Source: Campylobacterales bacterium (lineage in GTDB: Bacteria; Campylobacterota; Campylobacteria; Campylobacterales; Sulfurospirillaceae). From it: DNA of 64,000 nucleotides. The stretch spans positions 186,001 to 250,000 of the forward strand of contig JAFGFU010000013.1 in the NCBI GenBank assembly GCA_016930915.1. Direction: 5' to 3'. The notes beneath the pieces were generated by a model. The model was not told the origin of the DNA. It worked only from the letters and a program-made list of their open reading frames with translations, and searched no databases. Positions 25,038-29,817 of the stretch are shown one piece after another; the stretch's first letter is position 1; each line of letters starts with the position of its first letter. Made by a program: the position numbers and the translations under genes.

Positions 25038-26174
25038 TTACTTATCTTGTGCGTACACTAACGCTTCGCTAATCTTATCAAAACTTAAAATTTCACTGCC
25101 TTTATGGTCTTTTAAAAAACTCTGTGCACTTTTAAGTGTTGCAAAGGGGATAAACTCTTTGCCCATCGGTCCATAGGTATCACTGCCTATCACATAAAAC
25201 GCTTTTTTGCCATCAATCGCCTCTTGCGTATAATAATCACTGACCAAAATCGTATAGGCTTCATCATTGAGTTTGGTATAGTTGCCCCATTTGGAAGGGT
25301 TATGGTAAAACTTCAGCAAATCTTTGACCCCATCAAATGCATGACTCATTTTTTTGCCATTTTCTTCATAACTCATGCGTGCCGCCCATTTGGGATATTT
25401 ATAGACAAACATCCCACACACAGGACATTTTTCACCTTTTTCAACATGAATCACACTTTTATGCGTATGATTATGCTCTGCAAAACGCAAAATTTCCCAC
25501 AAATAGAGTGAAACCGCTTGAAGCTCTTTTTCTTCCAACTCACCACAGAGTTTTGTTTTTTTCAAAGAAAATTTTAACTCACTAATCGTATTAAAATCAT
25601 GCAGATGAATCTTCTCTTTATCACACGCTTTATGGTAAATCTTCTCACCCATAGGGTACATACCCTTTTGCTTTTTCTTAATAAACTCATCCACATCATC
25701 GTTTAAAGAGGCTTTGGCTTTGGCAAATGCATTTTCAAAACGCCCCAACTCTCCGCCATGCTCTTTTATAAACGCTAGCGCATCTGCCTCTTTTGCAAAC
25801 GCCAATTTACTCACCTGACTCATGGTGCCAGGTACTTTTGAGCCAATGACATAAAATGCCTCTTTCGCATCAATCAGCTTCTCGCTCACCACATCCGTGA
25901 CCACCACTTTTACAAGGCGTGATTCTATCGCCTCCCAATCTGCAGCCAAACAACGAATCGAGCAGTACTGCTTAGCCGTACCATCGCTCAAAATTGCCCC
26001 GTGTGAGGTTTTATAGTATTGCTTTAGATTCATACCACAAATGGGGCAGTAGAGCTTATCGTCCCCTTTTTGAATCAACTCTGGCTCATGAGATGCTACC
26101 TTACTAAACTCCTGCGCATACATCATCGTTCCTAAAAAAAGTCCTAAACAGACCATTATCCATCGTTTTACCAC
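25038..26174 (-). CDS. Exported double NosL-domain protein
   Basis: 378 residues. Signal peptide MVKRWIMVCLGLFLGTMMYAQ. Two NosL-type domains, each opening with a CxxCGM metal motif: CPICGM at 43-48 with QYCSIRC soon after, and CPVCGM near residue 250. Each ends in a FYVIGS (T/K)xxGxM repeat (FYVIGSKVPGTMSQ; FYVIGSDTYGPMGKEFIPF). Between them is a helical segment with KACDKEKIHLHDF. NosL proteins are periplasmic Cu(I) chaperones for nitrous oxide reductase; no nos structural gene is present here, so the metal's target is unknown. Last gene of a six-gene operon. A palindrome (26187-26196) sits before its ribosome site. Confidence 0.85.
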   Translation of the reverse strand: MVKRWIMVCLGLFLGTMMYAQEFSKVASHEPELIQKGDDKLYCPICGMNLKQYYKTSHGAILSDGTAKQYCSIRCLAADWEAIESRLVKVVVTDVVSEKLIDAKEAFYVIGSKVPGTMSQVSKLAFAKEADALAFIKEHGGELGRFENAFAKAKASLNDDVDEFIKKKQKGMYPMGEKIYHKACDKEKIHLHDFNTISELKFSLKKTKLCGELEEKELQAVSLYLWEILRFAEHNHTHKSVIHVEKGEKCPVCGMFVYKYPKWAARMSYEENGKKMSHAFDGVKDLLKFYHNPSKWGNYTKLNDEAYTILVSDYYTQEAIDGKKAFYVIGSDTYGPMGKEFIPFATLKSAQSFLKDHKGSEILSFDKISEALVYAQDK

Positions 26175-26200
26175 CTTTTCTCCTTTTTACATGTAAAGAT

Positions 26201-26710
26201 TTATTGTCCATCTAAAAGCTGTTTTCTTATTCGAGGGTCACTCAAGTTTTCACCTCTGAGCATACGAAGGCGCATTTCTTCAAAATCTATAAAACCCTCT
26301 TGCACACGCTCATATGCGCCAAAACCATACTGCATGGGCGTCTCATCTATGAGGGAATACCATGCGCTAAACCCATCAATATAGCGCTTACTATCACGAC
26401 TAAAGACCCACAGTTTTCCTCCTTCTAACGAAATTTTCTGCTCTTTTTGCCACAAAATAAAACAGCCAATATCATCAAAAAAGTGTGTTTTTCCCTGAGA
26501 GGTTACAAACTGAGCCGTATCTTTTTTGCCCACCAAATACATATGGCACTGCGGACACTGAAGGGTATTGTCTTTAAATTCAAGAGGGGTTTTCGCTTTG
26601 TTGACCACTTCATCTGGCTTTTGGTTTATCTTAAAGTAGTACCCAAAAATCACCATCAGAGCAATCAGGGGAAAACCGATTAAAATCAATGTAGATTTTT
26701 TCATAACCAA
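26201..26710 (-). CDS. Membrane-anchored NosL-like protein
   Basis: 169 residues. One N-terminal helix (LILIGFPLIALMVIFGYYF) anchors a periplasmic domain beginning LQCPQCHMYLVGKKDTAQFV, a CxxCxM site of NosL type, followed by THFFDDIGCFILWQ and WYSLIDETPMQYGFGAYE, the family's second half. The Gly of CxxCGM is His here. It overlaps the 8-TM protein gene by 10 bases. Presumed partner of the double NosL protein. Confidence 0.8.
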   Translation of the reverse strand: MVMKKSTLILIGFPLIALMVIFGYYFKINQKPDEVVNKAKTPLEFKDNTLQCPQCHMYLVGKKDTAQFVTSQGKTHFFDDIGCFILWQKEQKISLEGGKLWVFSRDSKRYIDGFSAWYSLIDETPMQYGFGAYERVQEGFIDFEEMRLRMLRGENLSDPRIRKQLLDGQ

Positions 26711-27663
26711 ACCCCATTTTTAAGAAAATAGACCACCACATAAGCACTCACCATCACCACATACAGGCTATTAAAAAAAAGAGAGAAACGCATCGCCCTT
26801 AAAATGAACCCTTTGGTCAATGTTGCAATAACAACCCCACATATGCCATAAAAGGTTCCTAAAAAGAGTGCGGCATATAAAAAATATCCCACGCCATAAT
26901 AATCACTCTGCAACAGACAAAAAGGGCAATGGTGGGTTGGAAGTTCATACACATAGGTGCTAAAAAAAAGTATCAATGAGACGATGGCAAAAAAGAGAAA
27001 AAGGAGATTGCTAAAGAGATACACCGCACCGTTTTTTACCATAAATCCCACGAGCATTAAAATAAAAGAGGCATAAAACAAAGAGACAATCATCCAATTT
27101 TCCATTAAAAAGAGAAAGGAAAGCGAGGATTGGGTTGAGGCTGAAAAAAGTGTGCCGCAGCAACTGACGATTTTACTGATATTTAAAGAGGTGAAAAAAA
27201 GAATTTCAAGCACAATTTCTGCGACAAAAAAGAAAAAAGCTATCCCAAAAAAGAGTGATTTTTGCCTAACATACGGCTGTAATTCACTTTCAACGTCTCT
27301 TACATGTAAAAGGAGCCAAAAGCCAAACAGGTAGAGATTGAGCAGTTTAAAAAGCAGTAAAAAAAGCCCAAAATCAACCGAATTCACAACCCCTGCCGCA
27401 CACATCGCCCCTGTAATAATCCCTGAGAGAGTATCGCACGTATAAATAAAAAATAAAAAAAGCGGTACTTTGAGCATAAAAATATATTTGATAATCAGCC
27501 CAACGAGATAAGACTCTTTTTCTAAACGGTACTGAAGCAGAGTCGTAGCCTCACTATCCCAAGACCAATAGAGTTTTAAGGAAAGCACAAACGCAATACT
27601 GGAGAAAAAAAGAAACAAGCCATCCAGCATTAAAATAGCAATAATTTCAGGCGTTAAAGTCAT
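26701..27663 (-). CDS. Eight-helix membrane protein with cysteine motifs, unknown function
   Basis: 320 residues, about eight hydrophobic helices. Notable polar features are MCAAGV near residue 88, SCCGTLFS near residue 168, and THHCPFCLLQSDYYGVGY near residue 245, a His-His-Cys-x-x-Cys motif at a membrane face that could bind a metal or act in thiol redox. I do not recognise a named family. Overlaps on both sides (10 bases with the NosL-like gene, 4 with the ABC ATPase gene) show tight coupling with a transporter and metallochaperones. One palindrome is read as Leu-Leu-His-Val-Arg (27300). Confidence 0.75.
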   Translation of the reverse strand: MTLTPEIIAILMLDGLFLFFSSIAFVLSLKLYWSWDSEATTLLQYRLEKESYLVGLIIKYIFMLKVPLFLFFIYTCDTLSGIITGAMCAAGVVNSVDFGLFLLLFKLLNLYLFGFWLLLHVRDVESELQPYVRQKSLFFGIAFFFFVAEIVLEILFFTSLNISKIVSCCGTLFSASTQSSLSFLFLMENWMIVSLFYASFILMLVGFMVKNGAVYLFSNLLFLFFAIVSLILFFSTYVYELPTHHCPFCLLQSDYYGVGYFLYAALFLGTFYGICGVVIATLTKGFILRAMRFSLFFNSLYVVMVSAYVVVYFLKNGVWL

Positions 27664-28328
27664 GAAAGCATCACTCCATTTTTAAGCTCAATCTGCTGGT
27701 CAACAAAAAGAAGATTAAAAAATTGTGAATCATGTGTTGCGATAAGCAAGGTCACACCACTCTTTTTTAAATCATACATGGTTTCAATAAACTGCTCGGA
27801 TAACACCGCATCAAGATTGGCGGTTGGCTCATCGGCAATAATAATTTTAGGCTCATTCACAAGCGCTCTTGCAATGGCAACACGTTGTTGTTCTCCCCCT
27901 GAGAGATGCCTGCACAAAGCGCTGGATTTATGGGAAATAGCGCACAATTCCATCACCTCTTCTACTCTTTTTTCCATAACCTGCGCACTTAAATTCTCTG
28001 GAATCAAAGGCAATGCAATATTATCTCGCACACTCAGGGTCGCAATCAAATGGTAACGCTGAAAAATAACCCCTATGTTTTCCCGTCTAAAATGTGCACT
28101 AAAAGGCTCCATCAACTTCGAAATGCGTTTTCCATCCACCACCACATCACCCGTAGTAGGTTTGCTAAGTCCTGCAATTAAAGAGAGAATCGTGCTCTTT
28201 CCACTCCCACTCGCCCCTTTTAAAATCACACACTCACCTGCTTTTACATGTAAAGAAATATCCCTAAGCGCATCGATGCGTTGCGCTTCTGTTTCATAGC
28301 ATTTGCAAACGTTTTTGAGCACAATCAT
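27660..28328 (-). CDS. LolD/MacB-type ABC transporter ATPase
   Basis: 222 residues. Walker A LKGASGSGKSTIL near residue 40, Q-loop FQRYHLIATLSV, signature LSGGEQQRVAIARAL, Walker B PKIIIADEPTANLD and the H-loop TH. The set is that of the MacB/LolD/FtsE group, which works with FtsX-like permeases as mechanotransmission rather than ordinary uptake. Its permease is the next gene upstream in the same operon, overlapping by four bases. The palindrome at 28244 falls in SLHVKAGE just before Walker A. Confidence 0.93.
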   Translation of the reverse strand: MIVLKNVCKCYETEAQRIDALRDISLHVKAGECVILKGASGSGKSTILSLIAGLSKPTTGDVVVDGKRISKLMEPFSAHFRRENIGVIFQRYHLIATLSVRDNIALPLIPENLSAQVMEKRVEEVMELCAISHKSSALCRHLSGGEQQRVAIARALVNEPKIIIADEPTANLDAVLSEQFIETMYDLKKSGVTLLIATHDSQFFNLLFVDQQIELKNGVMLS

Positions 28329-29506
28329 CGAAGCACCTCATCCGCATCTAACATCGCCGCTCTCCATGAGGGAATCATCACAGAACCGATATACACAGGC
28401 ACACTCAGTAAAAAAAGCAAGACAATCATAGGCATATTAAAATAAAACGGCAATTCAAAAGAGGGTTTTAGGGTTGAATACCCTACAAAAAGAGAACGCA
28501 ATAAAGGGGCTTCCCAAAAAAAGACATACGCCATAGAAAGCGCTAAAGCGAGTAAAAAAGCACCGAAACAGAGAATGAAACTCTCATAAAAACGCTCTTT
28601 TAAAATATCATCCATGCTCCACCCTAATGCCTTTAAAATGCCAATTTCTCTCTTCTCTTCTGAACTTAAACCGCTGAGCTTATCGTAAATAATCATAAAA
28701 AAGGTAAACGCACTCACCACAAAAAGGCTGAGAAAAAAACCACTTTTATAATCAAAAATATTCTGATAACTCACACGAATATCCTCTTTTGTGACCACAC
28801 GCATATCAGGATAGAGCTGATTGATTTTACTCACAATCGTAGGAATTTCTTCAGGATTGGAAACCTTTACCACCACATCCGTCGCTTCATTTTCTGGCAT
28901 TCCAAAAATTTCATACGCACTCTTTTTGGGAAGTAAAATCATATCGTTTGCTTGAAGGGAAATATCGGCATTAAAACTCCCCATAATGTGCATACGCTTC
29001 CATTTTCCATCCGCAGTGACAAAGTTGAAAAAATCTTGATAATAATTCTCTTCCAAAATCTTCTTCACACCCGCTCCTACAATCATACCACTCTCTTTTT
29101 CCAAAGCCTTCACATCGTATGCATCGACCACTTTTTGCAAACTCTCTTTATAACTTTGCTCAAACGCATCAATGCCCACAACCGAAAAATTAACCCCTGC
29201 AACTTTAAAATAATAATACCCCCACACACGAGGAATCACAGAAGCCACCCCCTCAATTTCTAAAAGTGGCTCTACTCTCTTTAAGGGAACATTGACCTGT
29301 TTCCCCGCTTGTAAACGTTGAAGCGTAAGCTCAGGCAAATGCGCAACACTGACATTAAGCTCATGTTTAATAGCATCGGAAATAAATAAAACAGACGCCA
29401 ATAAAAAAATAAGAAAAGTTAATATAAGAAAAACAAAAAGTGTTTTTGCCCCTTTTCGTATCAAAGAAAAAAGCGCAAATTCAAGAAGATAAAGATTAAA
29501 TTTCAT
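28325..29506 (-). CDS. FtsX/MacB-type ABC permease
   Basis: 393 residues with one N-terminal helix (about 20-42), a periplasmic domain of about 210 residues, and three C-terminal helices, the MacB/LolC topology. The cytoplasmic coupling segment reads SSEEKREIGILKALGWSMDDILKERFYESF. The final PSWRAAMLDADEVLR is the usual end of such permeases. The cargo is not evident. Partner of the ATPase gene it overlaps; the NosL proteins in the operon suggest metal-related envelope work. Confidence 0.9.
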   Translation of the reverse strand: MKFNLYLLEFALFSLIRKGAKTLFVFLILTFLIFLLASVLFISDAIKHELNVSVAHLPELTLQRLQAGKQVNVPLKRVEPLLEIEGVASVIPRVWGYYYFKVAGVNFSVVGIDAFEQSYKESLQKVVDAYDVKALEKESGMIVGAGVKKILEENYYQDFFNFVTADGKWKRMHIMGSFNADISLQANDMILLPKKSAYEIFGMPENEATDVVVKVSNPEEIPTIVSKINQLYPDMRVVTKEDIRVSYQNIFDYKSGFFLSLFVVSAFTFFMIIYDKLSGLSSEEKREIGILKALGWSMDDILKERFYESFILCFGAFLLALALSMAYVFFWEAPLLRSLFVGYSTLKPSFELPFYFNMPMIVLLFLLSVPVYIGSVMIPSWRAAMLDADEVLR

Positions 29507-29817
29507 GGCTCCACTCTCCCAGCACTCGTTGAGACGTACGGAGCATAGTGGTAAACAAACGTTGATGGAAAATACTCCAAAAGCTCAGGCGAGTCACCAA
29601 AAATGGAAAAAACATCACTTAAACTTCGATGCCTTACATAACGAGTTTCCCCCACTAAACTCAAATCAGGCAAACCCACATGGGCGATAAAAAGAGCTTT
29701 TTTATTCACTGCTTCTTGTGTCATACTGCGTGTGCTATAAAGATACCAAAACTCTACCACCACAAAAAAACTTAGACATATAAAAAACCCTATAAGAAAA
29801 AAAGTACTTCGTGCCAT
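29503..29817 (-). CDS. Small membrane-anchored protein heading the NosL-ABC operon
   Basis: 104 residues. One N-terminal helix (STFFLIGFFICLSFFVVVEFWYLY) then a short exported domain (KKALFIAHVGLPDLSLVGETRYVRHRSLSDVFSIFGDSPELLEYFPSTFVYHY). No cysteines in the soluble part and no family I recognise. Overlaps the permease gene by four bases, so it is probably first in the transcript. The 157-base gap upstream to the divergent YccF gene should hold both promoters. Confidence 0.7.
   Translation of the reverse strand: MARSTFFLIGFFICLSFFVVVEFWYLYSTRSMTQEAVNKKALFIAHVGLPDLSLVGETRYVRHRSLSDVFSIFGDSPELLEYFPSTFVYHYAPYVSTSAGRVEP

Follow-up and report, generated by a model that had tools for sequence, protein, structure and literature searches.

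A six-gene Campylobacterota operon of NosL proteins, an eight-helix Cys/His membrane protein and an FtsX-type ABC pair: a candidate copper-delivery module for respiratory enzymes

What do NosL proteins, best known beside nitrous oxide reductase, serve in a genome that holds no nosZ? The question is raised by six minus-strand genes at positions 25038-29817 of the window, the 64,000-nucleotide stretch of a Campylobacterales genome analysed here. In the open reading frame list and the DNA the genes follow one another in the order p6-p5-p4-p3-p2-p1:

29503-29817, minus strand: p6, first gene of the operon, signal-anchored periplasmic protein of 104 amino acids; no Pfam or NCBIfam family.
28325-29506, minus strand: p5, FtsX/LolC-type permease with a large periplasmic domain, 393 amino acids; Pfam FtsX 2.7e-11.
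27660-28328, minus strand: p4, ATP-binding cassette (ABC) ATPase of FtsE/LolD/MacB type, 222 amino acids; Pfam ABC_tran 4.5e-37.
26701-27663, minus strand: p3, Cys/His membrane protein with eight transmembrane (TM) helices, 320 amino acids; no Pfam or NCBIfam family.
26201-26704, minus strand: p2, N-terminally anchored, apparently divergent NosL with a CPQCHM site, 167 amino acids from its ATG.
25038-26174, minus strand: p1, exported double NosL with CPICGM and CPVCGM, 378 amino acids; Pfam NosL twice (6.7e-53).

The answer favoured here, and considered fairly probable, is that the operon would encode a module that uses ATP to deliver copper, in the periplasm, to respiratory copper enzymes, with cbb3 cytochrome c oxidase as its likeliest client in this organism.

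The six genes hold up as real and make up a set conserved in Campylobacterota. An earlier note on this DNA had described a six-gene operon with overlaps of 4-10 bases through five genes, and the coordinates, the overlaps and the gene order kept in relatives bear it out, with one refinement. When p2 is started at its ATG (26704), as is done here, and not at the TTG of the open reading frame list (26710), the four successive junctions of p6-p5-p4-p3-p2 are each an ATGA overlap of exactly 4 bases. The gap from p2 to p1 is 26 bp, and p1 has its own ribosome site of AAGGAG type. Close relatives preserve the arrangement of five of the six genes, and three keep all six in exactly this order, with one of these three loci truncated where its contig ends; chance grouping is thus excluded. 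As the note had said, nosZ, nosD, nosF and nosY are absent from the operon, and nosZ is also missing from the whole host genome.

The copper connection starts with p1, which as a whole protein scores 178.9 bits against the NosL family (PF05573; cut-off 24) and whose structure matches are the NosL structures 7osf and 7og7. The motif CXXCXM of clade II NosL is thought to bind Cu(I) (PMC6530538), and p1 carries it twice, as CPICGM and CPVCGM. The second Met is conserved (M118 in 39 of 43 relatives, M337 in all 43), and Cys 184 and Cys 210 of the linker are invariant in the 43 relatives. By PF05573 p1 is the sole NosL gene of the host genome. The p2 protein of the window falls below the Pfam NosL cut-off. 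Its profile nevertheless aligns with the first NosL domain of p1 (hhalign probability 92%), NosL chains lead its PDB matches (E 0.017) and its relatives score NosL at 4e-5 to 1e-3; because of this profile match, these chains and these relatives, p2 is read from its sequence as a putative third, divergent NosL domain. The count of three NosL domains in the earlier note is thereby upheld, two by Pfam in p1 and one by the indirect routes in p2.

The energy-coupling part is an FtsX-domain permease, p5, with a separate FtsE-like ATPase, p4. In the FtsX class, which includes LolCDE, MacB and FtsEX, ATP in the cytoplasm powers movement on the far side of the membrane. Among curated families p5 comes closest to TIGR02212 lolCE, at 36.7 bits well under the cut-off of 362, and its PDB match (5xu1_M) is weak. 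For p4 the best NCBIfam models are FtsE and LolD, and all matches are below cut-off (LolD 200 of 308, MacB 169 of 966). The earlier statement that this ABC pair is not NosFY agrees with p5 being FtsX and with relatives that hold NosFY as separate genes in the same operon. The remaining small protein, p6, has the conserved pattern ..LPDLSL..E..YVRHRSLSD.FS.F..SPELLEYFPSTFVY in a 13-member alignment (A4) and an omega of 0.29-0.34. Certain marine Campylobacterota have the module interrupted between p5 and p4: in L160 (4854-9333) an MmeI-type restriction-modification gene and its neighbours intervene, in L125 and L140 genes of the opposite strand.

The protein p3 was described in the note as an eight-helix Cys/His membrane protein, and an AlphaFold2 model supports the eight helices (predicted local distance difference test 85). 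Five Cys and one His are invariant across relatives (C88, C168, C169, H244, C246 and C249; alignments A1 and A3). Judging from the model and the loop charges, all six would lie in loops 2/3, 4/5 and 6/7, predicted to be periplasmic, and the cluster resembles a metal relay or a site of thiol redox chemistry. Structure prediction, proposed in the note for p3 together with the ABC pair, gave for p3 alone the helices and no convincing fold match. Against PDB sequences p3 has no match at E up to 1. Fold searches with full p3 and with TM4-7, the latter model being of low confidence, returned generic helical bundles, and VKOR, DsbB and NrfD-like folds were absent among the matches listed. Pfam VKOR (PF07884) is matched below cut-off by two p3 proteins (E ~0.002), both matches ending at CXXC; the best scores are 18.8 bits by hmmscan and 22.0 bits in a genome search, against a cut-off of 27.5. 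An identity of p3 with NosB was considered and ruled out: a separate gene in the nosB place, assigned by its position after nosZ and not by a family match, shares the operon in L036 and L040.

The distribution of p3 ties the cassette to copper enzymes. It is present in 46 of 60 relatives and in 455 stretches of the genome collection, where one bin labelled Acidobacteria (L154) also carries the module; transfer or mis-binning could account for the latter. NosL is found in 39 of 39 good genomes with p3 and is lacking from 9 of 12 without it (Fisher 7e-8, a statistic that ignores kinship). The presence of nosZ alone is no predictor of p3 (Fisher 0.22); the strong signal is physical linkage, p3 lying 17 kb or less from nosZ in 16 of the 23 genomes that have both. 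In Sulfurospirillum relatives p6-p5-p4-p3-p2 often stands within the nos operon (L036, L040, L044, L066, L089-L091, L093, L096 and L105), in the order nosZ, nosB-place gene, nosD, nosG, nosC genes, nosH, nosF, NosL-like gene, cassette, nosY, nosL. At other loci it lies beside the nos operon in the same or the opposite direction (L103, L106, L110, L114, L132, L135, L143, L144, L148, L152, L157 and L166). All 17 genomes with mccA, whose product, the sulfite reductase MccA, is like NosZ a periplasmic copper enzyme (PMC7558416), have p3, and it lies within the mcc operon wherever the assembly can show it. This is a diverged copy (34-39% identity; L026, L027, L035, L037 and L039) that ends the order mccA, mccB, mccC, mccD, CcsA1 haem lyase, TPR gene, double-NosL gene. 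The module also stands alone in several genomes, including some without nosZ. In a maximum-likelihood tree six mcc copies form one clade (100/99), and nos-internal, nos-adjacent and stand-alone copies are intermixed; the window copy falls together with the copies of G022, G013 and G015, and next to this group stand nos-internal Sulfurospirillum copies.

The note had proposed a search for the cluster and for co-occurring metalloenzymes, and what that search yields is the linkage to nosZ (16/23) and the presence of p3 in every mccA genome (17/17), cbb3 being uninformative. The note had also held that its idea would be refuted by regular presence in complete nos operons, which would make the cluster a known part of N2O respiration. 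The five-gene core does regularly occur in or beside nos operons of relatives; yet it is not just a component of N2O respiration, as the cassette is also found in sulfite reductase operons and alone in nosZ-free genomes. The cassette is thus not nos-specific, nor is it unseen before.

Within single genomes, nos-internal and stand-alone cassettes can be near-identical in p3 (L040/L041 in G014; L043/L096 in G023, S. diekertiae), which points to recent duplication or to gene conversion from one site to the other. In Sulfurimonas the genes that repeatedly precede the cassette resemble PrmC and HtpX at the start of their sequences; they appear housekeeping-like and were not used as functional evidence.

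The host genome (G000) is of Sulfurospirillum type, 2.23 Mb and 99% complete. It has no nosZ (TIGR04246), no mccA, no multicopper oxidase (Cu-oxidase_3) and no cupredoxin (Copper-bind) match, and cbb3 oxidase (ccoN) is the sole copper enzyme among those tested. All six genes of the operon are under purifying selection (omega 0.05-0.34) with intact frames and are therefore not a decaying leftover. Synonymous divergence from G015 is 0.39 for p1 and 0.71 for p2 versus 1.2-1.7 for p3-p5, which suggests gene conversion or recombination within the operon, between 25038-26704 and 26701-29506.

On these grounds a mechanism can be proposed. The NosL domains of p1, and probably that of p2 too, would bind periplasmic Cu(I), as their motifs suggest. 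The p4-p5 pair, as a mechanotransmission machine of FtsX type, would spend ATP from the cytoplasm on shifting a periplasmic domain, and that motion may drive docking, transfer or release of the chaperones at p3 and p6, much as NosDFY works together with NosL for NosZ. The five Cys and one His of p3 on the periplasmic face could relay metal, or could act as a thiol/disulfide partner and so maintain the Cys sites in reduced form. Clients would be NosZ and MccA in relatives and cbb3 oxidase in this organism. That cbb3 is probably the client here is a tentative suggestion, made because none of the other copper enzymes tested for was found and because the host has, just upstream of ccoNOQP, a DsbD_2 membrane protein that shares 41-50% identity with one encoded next to the p2-like gene in other modules. 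A broader version, which may be entertained with less confidence, is that of a general ATP-powered Cu(I)-insertion machine, not NosDFY, that is plugged into NosZ, MccA or, where neither exists, cbb3, with p3 as the first of a family that passes Cu(I) or electrons via a periplasmic Cys/His cluster. Copper routes to periplasmic respiratory enzymes have been worked out for few chaperone pairs only. If the proposal is true, copper supply would be partly shared and ATP-driven across nitrous oxide reductase, sulfite reductase and stand-alone sites, which would help to predict which N2O-reducing Campylobacterota work under copper limitation.

Several observations weigh against copper delivery by this module. 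The gene group of the window adjoins no copper enzyme gene, and in some genomes with nosZ the cassette is either missing or located elsewhere. In the aligned mcc-type copies of p2 the Cys pair has been lost. In most Sulfurospirillum species p1 is a separate gene, standing behind the cassette only in the window clade of four copies, so that the tie between p1 and the cassette is partly lineage-specific. With ccoN present in 10 of 14 relatives without p3, cbb3 assembly does not require the module, and co-occurrence says little on this client as ccoN is nearly universal.

The same parts can be read in other ways. Copper could be removed instead of delivered, the FtsX-type pair and NosL exporting or sequestering surplus copper from the periplasm much as MacB pumps do. 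Such copper/thiol detoxification is compatible with the MacB/LolCD class of p4 and p5, with NosL as a buffer for Cu(I) and with the module standing alone in several genomes, yet it is unlikely: the loci examined show no recognised MacA (membrane-fusion) or TolC-like partner next to p4-p5, permease and ATPase are encoded separately and not as a MacB fusion, and the placement within nos and mcc operons points to biogenesis. A Lol-like machine, in which p4-p5 would pull anchored NosL out of the inner membrane to the place of client assembly, draws on lolCE and LolD being among the best matches of the pair and on the solved NosL of the NosDFYL complex, named a lipoprotein in PDB titles. However, the signal peptide of p1 is of the ordinary kind, p2 is anchored by a transmembrane segment, neither sequence shows a lipobox Cys, and the Cys cluster of p3 would go unexplained, which makes this an improbable account.

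That cluster is central to the idea of a thiol-redox module, with p3 as a distant VKOR-like thiol:quinone oxidoreductase acting on NosL-type CXXC proteins and metal handling secondary. One of the two p3 proteins with VKOR matches ending at CXXC is the best VKOR match in 80 Campylobacterales genomes. The matches are nonetheless below cut-off and concern only two of the scanned p3 members, fold searches gave no VKOR structure, and a thiol enzyme alone leaves the NosL domains and the linkage to nosZ and mccA unexplained; the idea is improbable as well. The least credible reading is that the genes are left over from a nos operon and survived by chance once nosZ had gone. The window clade does nest with nos-internal Sulfurospirillum copies, and nosZ was found in none of the four clade genomes (G022 being only 88% complete), but the intact frames and low omega values speak against decay, and this clade has additionally joined p1 to the cassette. 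Copper delivery remains the preferred reading.

Other features were seen along the way. One subgroup of Sulfurospirillaceae has, in place of p2, an unrelated anchored protein of 153-157 amino acids with C-x6-C and no Pfam family (L127:4713-5186; L109:9877-10338; L137:10954-11427). A protein of ~608 amino acids joins a Fer4_5 polyferredoxin membrane part to a C-terminal NosL (L084:5759-7582 and L085:7253-9082, domains scanned in L084) and may be a Cu(II) reductase that comes with a chaperone of its own. The 12-bp palindrome TTTACATGTAAA has 21 sites in the window (expected ~0.02), e.g. at 26186 and 28243, and 681 copies in the host genome, where a reversed control has zero. Several congeneric relatives have 566-785 copies and S. 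cavolei has 144; five further genomes from the family or order have none. It resembles the cyanobacterial highly iterated palindrome HIP1; a literature search found no report of a HIP1-like palindrome for Sulfurospirillum.

One of the closest known systems is already in print. The nos cluster of S. cavolei was drawn in a 2016 paper (PMC4794192) with five white, unnamed reading frames that correspond to the five-gene core: a hypothetical protein, ABC permease, ABC ATPase and two hypotheticals, the order p6-p5-p4-p3-p2. The nos-internal cassette of S. cavolei UCH003 (L036/L117) is 48-60% identical to the window gene by gene; the window copy differs in having no surrounding nos genes and a double-NosL p1 downstream. 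The available portion of that paper gives the cassette no function and does not mention mcc or stand-alone copies, and a literature search, outside which the main Wolinella mcc and nos papers lay, found no function assigned to it. The suggestion of the earlier note, an undescribed route of metal insertion, is thus retained in part: a single copper-insertion machine, with a non-NosFY ABC pair and the invariant Cys/His of p3, is supported, but the five genes of its core had already been drawn in the S. cavolei report.

The mcc/sir operon (MccA, peptidyl-prolyl isomerase, NrfD, CcsA1 haem lyase) has p1-p5-p4-p3-p2 downstream of mccA-mccD-ccsA1 (L026, L027, L037 and L039), but these copies differ in their own clade, the lost Cys pair of p2 and an undetected p6. 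LolCDE and MacB (type VII) share the FtsX-domain permease and FtsE/LolD-like ATPase, whereas the cassette has a single permease gene, reaches none of the curated cut-offs and has no recognised MacA or TolC partner. NosDFYL likewise combines a NosL chaperone with an ABC transporter for a periplasmic copper enzyme. However, NosY is an ABC-2 permease (ABC2_membrane_2 in relatives) and p5 is of FtsX type, the operon has no nosD-like gene and neither it nor the genome has nosZ, and in relatives NosFY is encoded next to the cassette by genes of its own. The cassette is placed here with NosL-dependent copper-site assembly in kind, as neither a part of NosDFY nor a member of LolCDE/MacB.

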